Assembly (NCBI GenBank): GCA_015680905.1
Contig: CM027381.1
Span: forward strand, 52,208,501 to 52,272,500
Reading direction: 5' to 3'
DNA from: Coptis chinensis
Lineage: Eukaryota > Streptophyta > Magnoliopsida > Ranunculales > Ranunculaceae
Length of the DNA: 64,000 nt
The notes below the pieces were generated by a model that was given only the letters and a program-made list of their open reading frames with translations, had not been told where the DNA came from and did not search any database. Each line of letters starts with the position of its first letter. The first letter of the stretch is position 1. This document shows, piece after piece, positions 6,701-64,000 of the stretch. The translations under genes were made by a program, and so were the position numbers.

Positions 6701-9700
6701 GGACTCCCCAAATTTGTAGCGCAAACTCTAACACGTGTTGGATTCGGACAGCAACACAACTCTGGTGTGATACTTCTAATTTCCCTTTTCTAAACTACAA
6801 GATCTGAGTCTTATCATATGTTATGTATTTTTCCCCTTCTAAATGAGAAATTAGTTTGAATAAAAGACTAGTGTATCCTTTTATAAAGGAGCATTTGATA
6901 TATTGATATAATAACAGATATGTTCCCATTGAGATGTTTAGTCCCACATGGGATATGTTAAGCCACGCATAAAAATACTTAAGTCTTGGGGCCTCTCCAC
7001 TTATCAACAATTGGTTTTAAATTGGATGCCCATCTTAATTAGTTCCATTACATAATACATGAAATATTATAGAGTATTATTACTTTTCTAAATCATATAA
7101 AAACGCCTAATACCAAGTCCAGGTACCTTAATTTTTTGGGTTTGTCAAAATCCAACCCGAGTGAATTGCAAGTTTGCAACAGTACCAGTGTTTATGCAAT
7201 GCAGATTAGTTGTCATGGTTCAGAGTTCCTTATAAACAAGTGCAGAGGTACACAGTAGAGTTCAAACTAACGGCCGATTACCACTACCCCATAGGTCCAT
7301 ACGTTATAATAAAGCACAAACTGAAGCTCACTTAATTCATTAATCCAAACCCATCAAACCAAAAATATGGGACATATTTCCATTTTCAAAGTTCCTAGGA
7401 TCTGATCCTCACCTCTTGATCATAGTTGGATTCTACTGAACTAGCATCCTTTCCATTGCTAGAATTCTCTAAATCGCCATTATCACGGATCTCAGACTTG
7501 TAAGCTTCCTTGGTATCTTCATTCAGATGTGAACTGCTTGTTTCCATGTCATCTTTCACCTGGTAATTAGAAAATTTGAGGATTTCATCAATACAGTTGC
7601 AATACAAGAATAGAGAATAAATTATACCGTTGAAATCGGAGCAACTTACCAACTGAAGTTTCAACTGGTCTATATTATTGCTGAGCTTTAAGACGTGAAG
7701 CTTCAAAGACTACAGAGAACAAGCAGGAGATTGTTTAAGAAGCTGTTATCATTAATTAGAAGTGTTGTAAGAAGATTAATGTTTGAGTAAAATCAAAATT
7801 TATGGCAACCAGGCAGGAAATTGCTCAAAACAAATGACCAATATGTCTGAACTCTGCATGTGATGGTGCAAATCTAGTGTAGTCAATCCCCAGTATAAAT
7901 CAGCAAGACCATTCCCCCCCTTCCCCCATGAATTCAAAGGCCACCTTCATGCTCTCAACTGTTATAAGATTATCTCAGTACACAATGAATCCCCTGACAG
8001 TAATCTAACACAGACACCATATTTTTAAGTATTTTTTAGCTTAGGGTCAGAGCATTCACCTCACGACGCTGTGCCTCTATAGAGCGCTTCATTGCTTGCT
8101 TTTTATTTAATAGTGTCCGAGGTCTCAAATCAACAGGGCGTTGGTAATTCTTCCCTCGATAGACAATGATAGCATATTCCCTATTCACTCTCTCGACTGC
8201 AACCAATATTCCCCCACTTTCAGCCTCTAATGTCCGAGCTGCTTCATGAACATCTTCAATGCTTCTTCCACTTGCCAATATCTTCACAAGTTCGCGGTAC
8301 TTCCAGTGAAGATGCATATTTTCGACAGTTCCATCGAACACTCCACGTCTGCCTGAACATAGAAAAGATCCAGCCAAGTAGAACTGTTGAGCAGATTTGT
8401 AATGAAAAAAATTATGACTGAGAAGTTTGATAGGTACAAAAGATGGCCAAAACACGGTTAGTCAGAGAAACAGGTATACTTTGATCTGCTGAGATAGGTT
8501 GGAGCATTGGACTTTGCAAGATCACGATGGACAATAATCTAGTTTTACAAAGTTAATAAGTTCACTTAAAGCTAACCTCATGTTTTTTGTCTTCCATTTG
8601 CATCAAAGTGGGGATCCACATTTAAATATTTAAGCATCGTCTGGATAATTTTTACAGGTGATAGCAACTGCGTTCCAAGTCTCATACAAAAATACTCGTC
8701 CATTTGTTAAGCATCAAATTTAATTGCAAACGATAGTAAAATCATGTAACTCACCAAGAGGTAAGTATGCTTTCATTCTCAAGCCAACCTTCTTTAGCAT
8801 GTATCTTTCTTCTTCAGAGATACCCTCTTTATCAACTCCGGGTTGTTGGGGTTCTGATATTTTCTCCAAGTCTGCCAGAAGCTTTTCTGCATTCTCTTTT
8901 TTCTCTAAAGCCTGTATGTTAAAATGCAAGGAGAATGCATATAAGAGTTTGAACCAGGATGGAGTTTATACAAAAGCATCTCAAAATATACCATAGATAG
9001 TTTGGAACTGATTCTTTTGAGGCGAGAGTTAGCTGATTTGACTTTCCTTTGCTCAGCAGCATGTTCTATATTCCTTCTTATTGTTTCTTGAAGCCCATCC
9101 TCACTGGGAACCTGCTCGGAATTTGTCTCAACCTCGGGTCTTGTTTCAAAAGATAGAGTTTTCATTGTCAACTGTCTCTCTTTATGCACATACTTTCTAC
9201 GCTCCACTATGGCAGTAGATACTGCAGCAGGCAAAAAATCTTTTCCTCTGTAGAAGGTAATGAATTCCCTATCTCTAGATAGAAGTGTTCCTCCAGTAAG
9301 CCACTGCACAAGTGCACTCTTAATTACTTACACGGCTATCATTTGGACGGGAAAAAGAAAAAAGTTAACTGAGTAATCCTTACCTACCTTTAACTCTTCA
9401 GCCATCAAATCACTGTTGGTATTCTGGACACCACGCTTGATCGCGACCTTTGCGATCTCACATTTTTCCCAAAGCTTAACCATGGAAACTGCCAACCCCT
9501 GAAGTCTCCTATTTCTTCCTGAGGAAAAGGATAGATAAGTAGACAACAGCAAAAAGTAAAGCCAACACCGAAAAATTAAAGTAACTCACTAACCTAATGC
9601 AAAGTGGCATGGCAAGGGGCGGCTGAGTCTCCTTAAAGTGGTCATTTCATCATTGGTTAACTTAGGTTTTATACCATATGGTAGAAGACGGAAAGGTCTG

Positions 9701-12700
9701 CGGTAGCCAGGAACAATAGCAGGTAAAAGATCAGCATCAATAGGTAGAGGGTCATATCCCCACCAATCCGTAAAACGTGGACCTAGACCATCTAAAAGGC
9801 AGTCTGCTTCTTCTGCAAGTTGTGCCTCGCCAGGAAGTTGAAATCGTACTTTATTTGGAGAACCAACCCCATGAACCAATGAAGAGCGTACCGCTCTATT
9901 TAAATGATTTGGTGGAAAATATTTTACATCTGTGCCTGCTGAACTGCTAGGATTTTCACCATCAACTCCATGATCCATGCTAGATTCTGAGAATGACTTG
10001 TCATTGAACGTGTCATTTTTTTGATTGACACTGGTCAAGAAGTACGGATATTCATAACTGGCTCCCCTATATAAGATAATAGTACTTCCGGATCTCCAAA
10101 CAACCAGACCACCAGTTTTCCTCTGAGAATATTAGCGAATGGATATAGTTAAGGACATTTACACTAAGAAGCAATAGAGATCTTCCAAAAACATTAAAAA
10201 GGGAAAGATTTGTTATTAAATAAAGGGACAAAAAGAGTTTAAGTAAAGCAAGAGATCAAATTTCAAATATAAATCATTCAAGGATAAAGAAAAATACCTA
10301 AGTCTAATCCAACAATCCTAAAGATGCTTATCAAACTCGACCATGCTAATAGTAAAATTGTATTGTTGTTAATAGAGAAGAACTTGGAGAAAAAGAGGAT
10401 ACGGCCTTATTAGTTTTGGCCTTCTTTTTAATTGATTTTAATATAATATATATATATACACACACAAGCAGGTTCCGTTTACCATACTTTTTATACCATA
10501 GTTTATACCACCTCCTTACAAGATGAATTAAGTGTTAATAATTTGTGGATATGATATACTAACTATAGATAACATCTCCACAAAAATTTATCTCATTTGA
10601 AAATCTCAAACTTAATTGAAAGTTGTTGTAAACTTTGAATTTTTTTTAACGGTTCAGATTTTTCGATTTTGCAATCATTTTTTGACACAGTTAAACGTTA
10701 TCAAATTAGTGAAATTTTATAGAGGTGATCTTCATGATTAGTTGAACACATCCACAAAAAACTAGGTTATAATTCATGTTGTAGGTAAAGTTGTGGGGCA
10801 TGGTATAAACTATGGTATAAAAAGTGTGGTAAACGGAACCTACTCGATATATATATATATAACTCTAAATAAGACTTTGAGTTGGTAAATCAGTTTGAAC
10901 AAATGAGTCAATATTTGCTTGGATTCTAGAATACATATCGATTGGAATTCAGATATGATGGAATACTTTCATTCGAATATTCATAGACTAGTACACTGCA
11001 CACAGTGAGAGACGGGTTCCTAATAGCTAATGCTACCAAGAAATAAAAAAGGAAGGATGAAAGGAGTGCTGGAGAGGACAGTGAAAGAGAAAAACGAAGG
11101 AAGAATAAGATGGAGAGGGAAAGACATACTTGTTTCCTTCTATAGTCTTTCTGCTCATGTTCCACCCCTCTTTTCCAGTATGTCATTCTTGTATAAATGA
11201 ATATGGAGAGATGACAGAAGAGACAAAAACAGGGAGTGAGGAGGAAAAACAACAAAATTCCTTGATTGCAGTCAGAGGTCAGTTAGTCAATAAGCTATTA
11301 GGAATAGTGACAATGGATGAGAGTGAGTGACCTGACTCCCGTCTCACAAACAAAAAACAAAGTGTATCACAGTGCACAAGGCTCCAGTTAATGCTGGGAT
11401 TTCTGGCTTTCTGGAAAGTCAGATGTACGCGGCATTACCCCCACACACCATCTGTTTCCTCAGTTTGACCCCATGACAAACCAGGTGTATCTTTGATTCC
11501 TTTTAATTTGCTCTTTTTTTTTTTTATTGCTATTAAAAAAAAAAATCAATAAATAAAAGAAATAAAAGTATAGTCAGTTTATTTCACTTTCCGCAGATTA
11601 AGTTATTGAACGCTATAACCTAATATCTTTGGATAAACAAACTATCCTTGTGGTTATATATTTGAAAAAAAAAACAAAATCCAATAAATTGTTGACCTGT
11701 GTAAAAATATTACATTCACTACAAATCGTCAAGCACACCCTACTCCTGTAATACAAAAGCACATTTTGCTCCACAGATTCAATTGATCATCATAAACCAA
11801 TGACTTCAAAATACTTTTACATCAATACTGAAATCCACACGAAAGAAAGCCCCTTCTCTCTGTGTCTTCTCCAAAACTTGAAAATAGATACATCATTTGG
11901 GTCTCTTGATTGAACCATGTTTGGATCTAAATTATCATTCATCTTAGTAGCACGAATGCCCTCCTTAAACACTCTTAGCCCCAACCTGAAAGAACGGAGA
12001 GTTTTGAACAAAGCCTTAAATAGGTACTTCTAAAGGAAAGACTCAGAGATGGCCTCCGGATTGAAGATTAATTTAGCCAAGTTGGTTTGCAGGTGTGATT
12101 AATATTGTTGATACTATCTTAATCTACTTACGATTCACATAACTCATCTAAGAAATTAAATAAACAGTTCATTCAATAAAAAGATACAAAATCTAACCTC
12201 CAATATCTCATGAGTCCTCTTCATATCCATCTTACAAAGATCCTCACACTTAATCTTAACAACCTCAGACCTTCTCCATCTTTCATGAATCCCATTCACA
12301 ATCCCCTCCGTAATACCAGGTTTCCCAACATTCAACTTCTTCTTCAACCCAATACCAAGTGTAGTCAACCTCTTTAACTCCTCAACTGAAAGTTTCAACT
12401 CAGCTAAAGTTGGTACCTTTCTTTCTCTCCTCTTAACCATCCCTTTCTTCTCCATATAAACTTGTTTCTTCAACTCATGAAACCTCGATATCGTAAACCC
12501 AGAACCGGGTTCAGGTACTGGGTTCTCAGGTGTAGTCCAACTAGAATCATCAATAATAGTATAACCAACTCTATTACTAACCAACTGTTGAGGAAATGGC
12601 AAAAAAATCTCACCTTCAATTCCATTACCAACTTGGGCATGTTGTAAAGTGTTGTGTTGTTGAATGTGACCAAGAGTTTGAAGCTTTTCTGCTATTCTTT

Positions 12701-57157: not shown

Positions 57158-58891
57158 CTCTCATCGTCCTGGAGCAAGTTACTAAGATTTGCAATAAATT
57201 CATATGGAGTGGAGCTGAAATGGGAAGTAAAATGCATCATGCCAGTAAAAGCTGCACAACACTCCAAAAACAAGAAGGCGGCTTAGGGATAATAGACTTG
57301 AAGATGTGGAATAAAGTGGCATACTGTAGGTTACTATTCAAGGTGGTATCACGATAAGAAAACTTATGGGTGAAATGGGTCTGGAACCAATACATCAAGG
57401 ACAAGCACTTTTGGTCAATGAAAATCCCAAAAGATTGTTCATGGGTATGGAGAAACATTCTGATAGCAAGCGTTAATGCAAGGAAATTCACTAAATATGT
57501 TATAGCCAATGGTGAAGACACTTCCCTATGGTATGATTTGTGGTGTAGTGAGTTTCCACTTATTGAGAATGCATTTGCACGAGATCATATTCAGCTCCCA
57601 CTTACAACAAAAGTTAGCGAACTGATCATGGATAGGCAATGGAACAGGTTAGTAAGAGAATTGCCTCTATTACCTCTTAAAAGTAATATCCTTCACACCG
57701 AAATCAATGGATATGTAAATAGAGATACCATTGTCTTGACTCCATCTCCAAATGGTCTCTTCAGCTCCAAAGCCACATATGCAGCCATGAGAATTCCTTG
57801 GGAGAAAGTGAGGTGGTGCAGTTTAGTTTGGGGGAAGTATGTGGTACCTAGGCACTCCTTTACCACATGGCAACTGCTCTCAAATAACCTCCCTACCCAA
57901 GACAGATTGGTTAAGAAGAAGGTGATACAACAATCTCTTTGTTGTTTTTGTAACCAGAGTAGGGAGAATTCATTGCACCTGTTCTTTGAGTGTCAGTATA
58001 GCAAAGATATTTGGAATGGTGTTAAGCAAGAATTGGAATTCTTCATGAATTCGACTGATGGCAATGGAGTATGGCTGGAACTTACTCAGAGGTGTAACAC
58101 GAAGTCCTTGAAAGCAGAGGTTATAAAGGTTTTCATATGTGCCACTGTCAGTTACATTTGGCAAGAAAGAAATTTCAAGAGATTTAGAAATTGCACACAA
58201 CCAAGGGAGTGGTGAGGAATAGAATAATCTCATAAACAAAGACTTATCTTCAGGGTCAGTTATCTACAGTTCAAGCAGATAAGAGGGAAAGGGCTTTGTT
58301 AGAGAGACTTGGACTTATAGTGGAATATAACATAAGTACACCAATCTCGTGCGTGTGGACAAAACCAATTGATGGGGTTGTAAAATTGAATACTGATGGA
58401 GCAGTATCAGATACAAGATGTGGCACAGAGAGAGCAACCAGAGATTCCAATGGTGAGGTTTTATTTGCTTATGTAGGAGGAGGAGGTACTAATTTAGTGA
58501 TATTTTAAGAGTTAAAAGCTATTATGCAAGGATTGAAGGGCTGCGTGGATTGTCAGTATATGAAGGTGTTAGTGGCCTTAGACTCACTGTGCGCAATTAA
58601 CATTCTTAAGAGAAAAGAGCAAGCTCCTTGGTTATATCAGAATATAGTAGGGGTTATAGAGTTGTTTTGCTCTAACTTTCTAGTGTTGATTTTATTCATG
58701 TGTATCGAGAGACTAATAGGGTAGTTGATCATTTGGCATCCTTAAAACAATGTAATGGTGTAGAATACTTTATACCTCCTCTGAGCAAGCAACTCATTTA
58801 TTTTGTGGAGGAGGATGAAAGCAATGTATATTTGAGGATCTAGTGCAGGTAAGGGTCTGCCGAACCCTAAACTTTGTTTAAAAAAAAAAAG
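57158..58891 (+). mobile_element. 5'-truncated L1-type LINE with 15 bp target duplication
   Basis: Target duplication caatcatatatttac at 57143-57157 and 58892-58906. The 3' end is a poly-A of 11 at 58880-58890. The open frame 57370-58215 (281 codons) has the RT-distal domain (NKFIWSG, GGLGIIDLKMWNKV upstream) and the zinc-binding region with PRHSFTTWQLLSNNLPTQD, CCFCNQSRENSLHLFFEC and YSKDIW. RNase H follows (LNTDGAVSD near 58390, LDSLCAINIL near 58580) with stops at 58508 and 58724. The RT core and endonuclease are missing, as is usual for 5'-truncated insertions. Confidence 0.95.
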
Positions 58892-59734: not shown

Positions 59735-61950
59735 GGTAGAGAGATATCTTAGACACGCTGAAGACTTGTTATGTGGAGATGAGAACTGAGGTTCCATACT
59801 TCTGTCAGCCTCACATATGCATGTTCTATATATCTTTCCCTTAAGGGAGAGGTGGTCTCGGGCCCATTGAACAACGATGGTACACATTCAAGTTGTGATT
59901 TTATCTTCAGAAGTATGTATATGGTGTCGGTGTGGAAAATGCTCATTTTCATTGTTTATGAAGGACCAATTTTGTGATGAGTTGGAACTAGTAGTCTAAT
60001 TTTAACAATATTTTCGACTTTTCGTGGTAAAAGGAGTTTAACATTGGGTATCAAAGATCTTCAAATTCAAAACATTGCATTGCTCGGGGAAAAAAAGCAT
60101 AGGAGCAAGTTGAGCAGCAATAAGTATGGGTACAGGTAGTGAAACATGTGTATTTCTATCGAGATGATTTCATGAAGTCAAAGTGTCTGAGATGAGCTTC
60201 AAAAGTTTGTAAAATAATGCACTATTTAAAAAACTACTAACACTAAGACTAGTATGGAAGGACGGAGATGATCTGGACATTAGAGGTTGCGAGACACCTG
60301 GGTCCTGGATACACTCATACACGGTGGAACTTGCAAGCTCTGAACCCCAGTTTTTGCCTCAGGAGTATGCAACGAGAATTCTTTTTATTCATCTGAGATG
60401 GCAAGCTGGTAAAGATAAAAGGTACTGGGCACCAGAAAATGATAACAGGATTAATTGTATATTTGTATGTCATAAACAATTATAGTACTCGGGTTATTAT
60501 TAGTCTTTTATTTCACTGAGAGGTGGACAGGTGGTGCCAGGGAAGCTGGGATATGTTTGTAAAAGAAAACAAAAGAATGGGAATACCTCGCTCACAGCCA
60601 CTCGTGTTGGGGGTTTTCCGAGTCCCAACTCCCAACATTCTTATAGTGACTGACCTGAACAGACTTGTTTTGGCAGAATTTTAGCATCTGACAGTACTCT
60701 TTGTTGAATGGGGTCAATTACGTTTGGAATAGATTCCAGGGTTCCTGGCAACACTGCCCTCTATATATGGATATGGATGTCATGAACCTAACAAAGACTT
60801 GAAGGACAATGATAACTCGATGGAACCAAGGTTTCTGGCTTCCTGCACGCTTATTTGAACACTTGATATAACCAAGGTTTCTACGCGCTCACACATTCAC
60901 ACTCAATTTACCAAAAAAAATAAAAAAATCTACCATACTCCAAAATGCAACATTCTAGTTTTAAACCGTGTAGCACTCATAGCAGATCATATACTGCGCG
61001 CAAGTTTGATTCGGTGCAGATTGAATCCATTTTAACTTGATTCTATTGTGTTTCCCATAATTGGATCCTAGTCGCTGTATCAAATAAGTGTACATATATC
61101 GTTAGGAATGCAGATCAATAAGAATGTAGAAATTCTTTGACCATTATCTTTTCATCTCAGCTCAGTCCCAACTCCCAACATTCTTATATTTAGTGTGCTT
61201 CATTTTCCATAGCTCCCTGCAAAGTAGATTTCATTTTGATGTGGAGGGAGAAAGCACAGGATATAGAGATTTTGATCTTGGTGCAAAAGCTTAGATCCGT
61301 AGACTTGATACGTAGTCTCACTTTATCAATCAACCATGCCCTTAGAATATAGAAATAAAAGTTATTTATTACAACCAGGGCTGAGAAAGTGGAGCAAAAA
61401 GAAAGCTGTTTCAAGTGGGAAACTTTCCCGGGGTCAAATATAAAGTCATCGAGTGTGGTTATTCGGAACAATAGAATGGAAGTGGTTTTCCAGACATAAA
61501 GTTGAGAAAAAAAAAGGTAGTAAGGAACCAAGGATACAAGTGCAGTTTGTCTCGTACGTTTTTCTCTATAGAAAACAAATTCTAATTCTAAAGGTCCTTG
61601 TTATTGCTTAAAATCTTACACTTTTGTGCATCCAAATTAAAATCATACCAGCCTACCAAGAACTTCTATACTACCCTGCAAGGGCTTAAAAAAGCTTCAA
61701 GTATGATTTTATACACATAAACAAAAGCATCATAAATTCGTAACCGTTGGATATAGCTAGCTAATGGCTATTGAGAAAGGTTGTAGGTGGCATTCTATGT
61801 TGAAAATTCTCAATAGATGTGCATGCCCACCATGTGTACAAGAGTGTCTTTATCTATGCAGTCGAAAACTAAAATAGACATGTAAGTGGTAAGAGCAACA
61901 GCCAATTTTGTCTTGTTTTTATAATTAACAAATGGTCGTTGCATCAAGAC
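59735..61950. other. Intergenic, no gene seen
   Basis: Non-repetitive AT-rich DNA. Short open frames (59666-59952, 61190-61531 on minus) lack recognisable domains. A 25 bp exact direct repeat starting agtcccaactcccaacat occurs at 60621-60645 and 61164-61188. Nothing else is supported. Confidence 0.5.
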
Positions 61951-62273
61951 CAATATATACCCATAAAGCTCTTTCCCAAACCCTACTCATTTGTTTCTAT
62001 AGTTCGGAAGGAACAGTATCCCAGTCTTTAACTATACCCAAGAAATGCTTTTTCTTCACTACCACAGATTCACACACAAAAACAGCCTTTTTCTAATAAG
62101 ATATCAGTTTTATTTGGTGGCAGAAAGCATGAAAAAGAAAGTCATGGGTTTCATGATAATTCTCTACACCACATGGAGAGAGAAAAAACTCATCATCATC
62201 ATAAGTCATGAGAGATGGCACGCAATATTTTGGATTTTCTCCCTTGTTTCAACGCCACAACACAACCGTAATC

Positions 62274-62444
62274 ATGGCTTCTCACACCATCTCATCATCA
62301 TCTTCCTCACCATCATTACTCCCTCACCACCCCCACTACCTTTTATCATCAAGGCCAACCACAAGAACAACAACATCGACAACATCAAAAACAGTACTGG
62401 GAAGAAAGAGAAAGAGAAGAAAAGAAAGAGAGAAGGAAATATGA
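62274..62444 (+). CDS. Possible small ORF in the lncRNA candidate
   Basis: ATG at 62274 opens 56 codons: MASHTISSSSSSPSLLPHHP, then a threonine-rich part and a strongly basic end (GRKRKRRKEREKEI). It lies 94 bp upstream of the miRNA mimic site. The low complexity makes it a weak coding candidate. It could be a regulatory upstream ORF or chance. Confidence 0.15.
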   Translation: MASHTISSSSSSPSLLPHHPHYLLSSRPTTRTTTSTTSKTVLGRKRKRRKEREKEI

Positions 62445-62537
62445 TGATTATGGTTTCACTTAAAGGAGTTCTACCTCTCAACTATGATCTCTTTTGAGTG
62501 AAGGTGAAGGTGTAGGGGTTTTCTTCTTTTCTTACTT

Positions 62538-62561
62538 GGGGAATCAAGCATCCTGGTCCGA
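62538..62561 (+). promoter_or_regulatory. Endogenous target-mimic site for miR165/166
   Basis: Positions 62552-62561 (cctggtccga) pair perfectly with miR166 nucleotides 10 to 1. Positions 62549-62551 (cat) are unpaired. Positions 62538-62548 (ggggaatcaag) pair with nucleotides 21 to 11 except a C:C mismatch at nucleotide 14. A 3-nt bulge between miRNA positions 10 and 11 is the hallmark of target mimicry: it blocks slicing while keeping binding, as in IPS1 with miR399. miR165/166 represses HD-ZIP III genes, so such an RNA could sequester it. Mature miRNA sequence recalled, not looked up. Confidence 0.75.
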
Positions 62562-63060
62562 TCTTTAGCTAGATCAAGTAAATTGCTCTAGCTTGGGAAC
62601 CTTACTTGTGAGGGTTCTCTTTGTTTTCAGTTATAAAGCATAAGATCATGTGTTTTGTATGAGTTCATAATACTTTGGTTTAATTAGGTTAGTTAAGCAT
62701 ATGGTGCTAGCTAGAAGGACATAAGTACATGTTTGAGGTATGATGTGTGTAAGTTTAATTTGAAGAAGACACGAGTACTTTGTTTTGTGTTAACTACCAC
62801 ATGAATTGTGTGTTGCTATCCATGTTTTGTTTTTGAGAACCTGAAGAATCATGTGTGTGGAAAAGATTCTATGAGAATATCTTTAGAAGGTTTAATTTCC
62901 TAGATTCACCTTATATAGCTGAGCTTATTTCTACTTTCCATTAGGGTTAGCTAGGTTTTCTTCTTCTTAGATAGTTTTCCTTCATTGTTTCTTAGACGCC
63001 TTACTAGCTTTCTTTGTGAATTAAACAGCCATGGGATTGTTGTTGACATTATTAGTTTTA

Positions 63061-64000
63061 CTTTCACACATGATGCTTCACGATCTATTAGATCTTCTGT
63101 TAGCAAATGATATATGATCACAGTATGTGTGTATTATATATTAGGGGGTAGGATTAATCCAGTTTACATCTAAAGCCAACTTTTCTTAAAATGTAAACGT
63201 GTATATATCTAGCTTACTTATATATATAGTAACTCTTCATGATTACAATAGAAAGTTTCTAATAAAACATGCAAGTGAAGATAAATGATTTCACGCATGA
63301 GCTGGCTAGCTAGCTAGCTGCCTCTAATTTTTTTCTTTTGGGTTTACTGCGAGCTGTTTATTAGCACAGTTCTCCCAGACATGTAAACAGTGTACATGAA
63401 ACACACCCAAAATATGTCCAAGTTCCCCGCTTCCCCAGCTGTGTTCTAATTTTGTTTCCCAGTATATGTACATGTACTTAACAACCAAAGTGGTGCTCTT
63501 GACTCGTGAGTTTAGGCATCATCATTATAATCTAAAATACCTTATCCTACTTTTAGGGTCTAAATCATGAATTCTTGGTCGAGCGTCGTCATTATATTCC
63601 TTAGGAATAGAAGTTAAATCACCATCCCATCAAGTCATCAACAATGCTTACTCTTCAGCATTATATCATTTTTCATTAAGAAAAACAGAAACCAGATGTA
63701 CATACTTGGACTACAAGTGTCTAAATTTTCTTGTATATGGTTTGCCTTTCAATAGATTATGTTTTTTTTTTTTTTTTACTGCTTATTTTCGATTTCAAAT
63801 TGCCTTCAATATGTAACTGCGTATGTATTTGGTGGTAAACAGCTGGTTATCGATAATGATTGATACTTGTCCGCATCTAAGCTAAGGTTATTAGTCGTAT
63901 TACATTTGTGAATTTCTTGCAACGTGAATACCCACTCTCTATAATAATAATAATAAAAAAACAACCCTTCTTCTCTAGTGCCGCACTACTCGTGCAGCAT
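63061..64000. other. Non-coding flank, no gene seen
   Basis: AT-rich DNA with a short GCTA tandem (63301-63320), a T-run near 63763-63778 and an ATA tandem near 63943-63955. No coding frame, RNA gene or mobile element recognised. A gene may begin beyond the window. Confidence 0.5.

Follow-up and report, generated by a model that had tools for sequence, protein, structure and literature searches.

miR165/166 sets the dose of the HD-ZIP III factors, which pattern leaves, vasculature and meristems. Natural decoys of miR166, or endogenous target mimics (eTMs), have been published, and those that we met were assayed by overexpression, transient expression or silencing (passages of PMC4683531, PMC6162444, PMC8861278 and PMC8215657). 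Overexpression of ath-eTM166-1 altered the rosette leaves and raised the miR166 targets (Wu et al. 2013, as told in a passage of PMC4683531), and a passage of PMC6162444 deals further with miR166 decoys, ath-eTM166-1 included. For overexpressed decoys, a changed leaf shape in Arabidopsis and a rise of targets in Nicotiana benthamiana were reported (passage of PMC4683531). When the tomato transcript slylnc0195 was transiently expressed, the miR166 target mRNAs rose, and when it was silenced in tomato, the HD-ZIP III mRNAs fell (passages of PMC4683531). csi-eTM166 of sweet orange (Ke et al. 2019) is named as an miR166 eTM in passages of PMC8861278 and PMC8215657.

The locus studied here is located in C5:52208501-52272500 of the 935-Mb Coptis chinensis genome. 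This whole stretch of 64,000 nucleotides is called the window, and positions given without a chromosome are counted along it. The candidate miR166 decoy (target-mimic) site is located at 62538..62561 (+), with 20 of 21 nt paired and a 3-nt bulge. Like ath-eTM166-1, it pairs with miR166 around a central bulge, and it resembles csi-eTM166 in being an eTM candidate of miR166, a comparison by name and not by sequence. In the passages cited, ath-eTM166-1 has transgenic support and slylnc0195 is an lncRNA both predicted and assayed as an miR166 decoy acting on HD-ZIP III, whereas the window locus is known here from its sequence alone. The window site is a probable further member of the group already described with ath-eTM166-1, slylnc0195 and csi-eTM166.

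The miR399 decoy of the IPS1/At4 type has the geometry seen in the window site, namely pairing that is complete except for a 3-nt bulge close to the point of cleavage. One such miR399 site was found at C7:34441016-34441037 (+), GGGCAACTTGGATCCTTTGGCA, again with a 3-nt bulge. It belongs to another miRNA and pairs more strongly, reaching 85% of the perfect duplex with a general miR399 sequence against 71% for the window site. This indicates that the genome holds such a design for another miRNA and that the method detects it.

The letters at 62538-62561 (+) are GGGGAATCAAGCATCCTGGTCCGA, and they were read against the miR166 complement, which is GGGGAATGAAG followed by CCTGGTCCGA. Compared with this complement, the site splits into 11 nt with one mismatch, the letters CAT and 10 nt. 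The first arm (62538..62548, +) faces miR166 nt 21-11, and its sole mismatch is the C at 62545, opposite miR166 nt 14. The bulge CAT is located at the cleavage point (62549..62551, +), and the seed-side arm (62552..62561, +) pairs perfectly with miR166 nt 10-1. An earlier note on this DNA had claimed pairing with 20 of the 21 nt of miR166 and a 3-nt bulge between nt 10 and 11, and the letters confirm it. Because a C stands on both sides of the bulge, two drawings are equivalent: CAT between nt 10 and 11, and ATC (62550-62552) between nt 9 and 10; RNAduplex drew the latter. The duplex energy with the species' own miR166, a check which that note had proposed, was -31.2 kcal/mol for the exact miR166 (71% of the perfect duplex) and -28.2 kcal/mol for the variant ending TCCTC (67%), both by RNAduplex.

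Published eTM rules ask for a single bulge of 3 nt (2-4 nt in some) within miRNA nt 9-12 (passages of PMC6890743 and PMC6355781). The passage of PMC6355781 adds a duplex energy below -25 kcal/mol together with RNAhybrid P < 0.05, and further passages on prediction rules or results are found in PMC4608266. The grapevine study PMC6488645 states, in the passage concerned, that its data held no 3-nt-bulge mimics. The window site has one 3-nt bulge within miRNA nt 9-12. All of miR166 nt 1-10 can pair, and this includes nt 2-8, for which perfect pairing is the rule. Outside the bulge, mismatches plus G:U pairs should number fewer than three; the site has one mismatch and no G:U with the exact miR166, and the TCCTC variant adds one G:U. 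Contiguous pairing through nt 10/11, the trait of an ordinary miR166 target, is absent from the window site.

An eTM needs its cognate miRNA in the same species. The genome holds miR166 with at most one mismatch at six places, of which three are exact and three are one-letter variants ending TCCTC, and MIR166 hairpins above the Rfam gathering score were found at five of the six. The match to miR166 claimed before thus holds with the genome's own copies. Two MIR166 hairpins stand in tandem at C6:3522701 and 3522854 (-), 153 nt apart, and perhaps belong to one transcript. The exact miR166 at C2:87126512 (-) has no hairpin above the Rfam gathering score; the opposite strand carries a MIR166 hairpin 18.6 kb away.

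A second miR166 decoy-like site was found at C6:68927011-68927035 (-), GGGGAATTGAAGCAACCTGGTCCGA, with all 21 nt paired. It carries a 3-nt bulge, CAA, at the same place as the CAT of the window site, and one extra bulged T in its 3' half. Owing to these two bulges, the strict one-bulge rule (passage of PMC6890743) would reject it, which tells somewhat against the C6 site. A TATA box, TATATATAAG, is located about 220 nt upstream of it, and a 51-aa ORF ends shortly before it. The site lies within about 390 bases that match nothing else in the genome; a short repeat borders this stretch on one side and a many-copy repeat on the other. The flanks of the C6 and window sites do not align, and the only notable match between the loci is the 27-nt site itself (E 0.002). 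In this one genome, therefore, the two loci have only the site in common, including the CA(T/A) bulge and the letters TC directly after the site. The shared letters fit selection for miR166 binding, and the two sites may have arisen from one ancestral site, the original flanks having been lost long ago. As judged from its letters, this second locus, decoy-like and located in the same genome, adds weight to the reading of the window site as a putative decoy. The letters of neither decoy site were printed in the main texts searched with DNA and RNA fragments, some of them reversed.

With MEKHLA, which we take to mark HD-ZIP III proteins, 17 matches were obtained; they lie at 11 places, all of which were examined. 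An miR166 site was seen at four of them (L044, L045, L046 and L047), and the other seven showed none within the about 9.8 kb examined. At each of the four loci, a GT...AG intron splits the site between ATGAAG and CCTGGTCCGG; these introns were read from the genomic letters, without cDNA. The bases directly before and after the intron are those that pair with miR166 nt 11 and nt 10, and the intron position coincides with the bulge of the decoys. Once it is removed, no bulge is present in any of the four, so the bulge-free HD-ZIP III target sites of the earlier claim hold after splicing. At the first, second and last letter, none of the four HD-ZIP III sites agrees with the miR166 complement, and both decoys carry the complement letter at these three places. 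At the fifth letter, the complement letter is present in both decoys and also in two of the four HD-ZIP III loci. Since the decoys have the miR166-complement letters where the HD-ZIP III sites differ, they seem to be adapted to the miRNA and not to stem from its targets.

Two HD-ZIP III loci on C9, about 143 kb apart, are alike around the site and are perhaps recent duplicates. Two more one-mismatch half-site matches, in L044 and L045, were dropped because no ATGAAG was nearby. The C4 place TGGGATGAAGCCTGGTCCAG was dropped because it did not resemble any of the four HD-ZIP III loci.

The surroundings of the window site form a single-copy intergenic stretch (61900..63150, +), a putative non-coding transcript unit whose only match in the genome at E <= 0.001 was itself; no kin was found elsewhere in the genome at this threshold. 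Neither of the two TATA patterns tried was found upstream of the site in 61801-63300. One TATAAA is located downstream, at 62632, and a weaker TATATAC was seen by eye at 61955. The Rfam search of the window gave no match at the gathering score, and the six weak matches in 61900-63200 were below the family thresholds, none of them being a plant miRNA. The mean unpaired probability was 0.54 for the site and 0.38 for its 425-nt surroundings. In the minimum-energy fold of 62480-62640 (161 nt), 17 of the 24 site bases were paired with upstream sequence by hand count, and 18 of the 24 were paired in an 80-nt fold. According to these predicted folds, such pairing could hinder the binding of miR166. 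The local RNA structure around the site was not unusual (z -1.16).

How often such a site arises by chance was estimated in the window and in the genome. The window scan used 27 miRNAs and bulges of 1-6 nt, with G:U counted half. The miR166 site was the best, with a penalty of 1.0 (2.0 if read as miR165), and the other sites at a penalty of 3 or less were one for miR390 and one for miR172, both at 3.0. In the genome, the true pattern at up to two mismatches matched two places, the window and C6 sites, and a repeat of the count also gave two. Three scrambled patterns gave no genome hits at this threshold; they were one pattern and its reversal, each one letter longer than the true one, and the true pattern reversed. 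At up to three mismatches, the true pattern matched 11 places against five for the reversed control, so only sites with two mismatches or fewer are informative. The nine of these 11 places with three mismatches were set aside; eight of the nine are one repeated sequence. A separate gapped search gave six places, three of which are the antisense of exact miR166 places. The gapped match C8:14440618 was judged to be chance owing to its poor pairing (61% of perfect).

The site might be untranscribed or inert intergenic sequence that resembles a decoy by chance. Across 40 Markov-1 random windows, any of the 27 miRNAs gave one site at a penalty of 1 or less and three, that one included, at 2 or less. 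The frequency of such a site for some miRNA in one window is thus roughly 1 in 40, a poorly estimated figure. For miR166, the number of sites expected in the 935-Mb genome was about 0.007 when at most one mismatch and a 3-nt bulge at 10/11 were required; it was about 0.06 with bulges of 2-4 nt at three positions, and about 0.0009 for sites like the C6 design. These expectations were Markov-1, with the composition taken from the window and 55 loci, some of them overlapping. When the miR166 expectation was applied to each of the 27 families, roughly 0.5 to 1.5 chance sites of such quality could occur per genome, so the window site alone is no proof and the second site matters. The low expectation for miR166 itself, the second site of similar design in the same genome and the empty scrambled controls argue against chance, and we consider it rather unlikely. 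A different doubt grants the binding: the RNA would be transcribed, yet be too rare to alter the miR166 pools measurably, and would be no regulator. Single-site decoys have this limit in general. Decoys elsewhere changed leaf shape or target levels, though at other loci (passage of PMC4683531), and we give such a rare, ineffective transcript a low probability, slightly below that of chance resemblance.

The site could also be part of a small-peptide gene, in its leader or its tail, and the decoy effect would then be secondary or absent. The longest ORF on the upstream side (150 aa, 62045..62497, +) ends 40 nt before the site, a 28-aa ORF is located downstream at 63031, and the C6 site likewise follows an ORF closely. 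The 150-aa ORF was judged to be a chance ORF in low-complexity sequence. It had 0 of 28 candidates at E <= 1 among 5.8 billion proteins, and its best Pfam match was 13.2 bits against a cut-off of 25.6. As a positive control, an exon from another part of the window was compared with the same protein database and had 204 relatives. The 28-aa ORF matched no Pfam family above the cut-off, and the 51-aa ORF of the C6 locus, a short query, gave neither a homologue nor a candidate. The ORFs of the two loci had no evident resemblance by eye, and their flanks are unaligned. No conserved protein thus appears around the site among the ORFs compared, as had been claimed; the host reads as non-coding and intergenic by homology only, and a small-peptide gene is very improbable. 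Even less credible is a relic, whether of an MIR166 gene or of a fragment from an HD-ZIP III gene. The antisense of mature miR166 would yield most of the site letters, but the window locus has no Rfam MIR166 match and no miR166/miR166* hairpin, by which an MIR166 precursor is recognised. Its flanks share with the miR166 loci (L003-L007) only short matches, 12-20 nt long and with E values no better than 0.2. In folds of the minus strand, the site did not form one arm (at best 11 of 24 nt in the window folds tried, and 16 of 25 nt at the C6 locus), and none of the 11 inverted-repeat pairs in 61900-63200 has the site in an arm. Against a fragment of an HD-ZIP III gene, the HD-ZIP III letters are missing at the three places where all four loci differ from the miR166 complement.

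We consider it moderately probable that the window site is an endogenous target mimic of miR165/166 in a non-coding RNA of the + strand. Under this target-mimic reading, the + strand RNA would carry the site to miR166-loaded ARGONAUTE (AGO1 or AGO10), which would pair with it through nt 1-10 and through nt 11-21. With a 3-nt bulge at the cleavage point, slicing would not take place, and therefore the uncut RNA would hold the miR166 complex and relieve the HD-ZIP III mRNAs. The C6 locus would act likewise as a second miR166 decoy. For the window locus, we infer transcription, stable binding, cleavage resistance and a developmental effect. The earlier note had described a decoy that controls leaf polarity and meristem regulators; the geometry, the match to the genome's own miR166, the unbulged HD-ZIP III sites and the lack of a conserved protein support the decoy reading, and a transcribed RNA with control of those regulators is the part that we only infer.

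We speculate, tentatively and with more doubt than belief, that the genome has two or more miR166 decoy genes, independent of one another and located on different chromosomes, which share the site alone, with a CA(T/A) bulge at the point of the HD-ZIP III intron. The dosage from two separately regulated genes might then tune leaf and vascular patterning. For specialists, the main interest lies in the two loci, whose flanks are unrelated. Two candidate sites of similar design in unrelated flanks offer a clean deletion test of whether decoys are important at native level, and the pair would also test whether natural decoys arise repeatedly.

Two other ORFs of the window were annotated. The ORF at 57370-58215 (+) has a zf-RVT domain and is a retroelement fragment upstream of the decoy locus. 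The ORF at 9589-10038 (-) itself had no Pfam match, and its homologues include proteins with PF01985, which we take to be the CRM domain, as well as named proteins from the plants Ensete and Salix.
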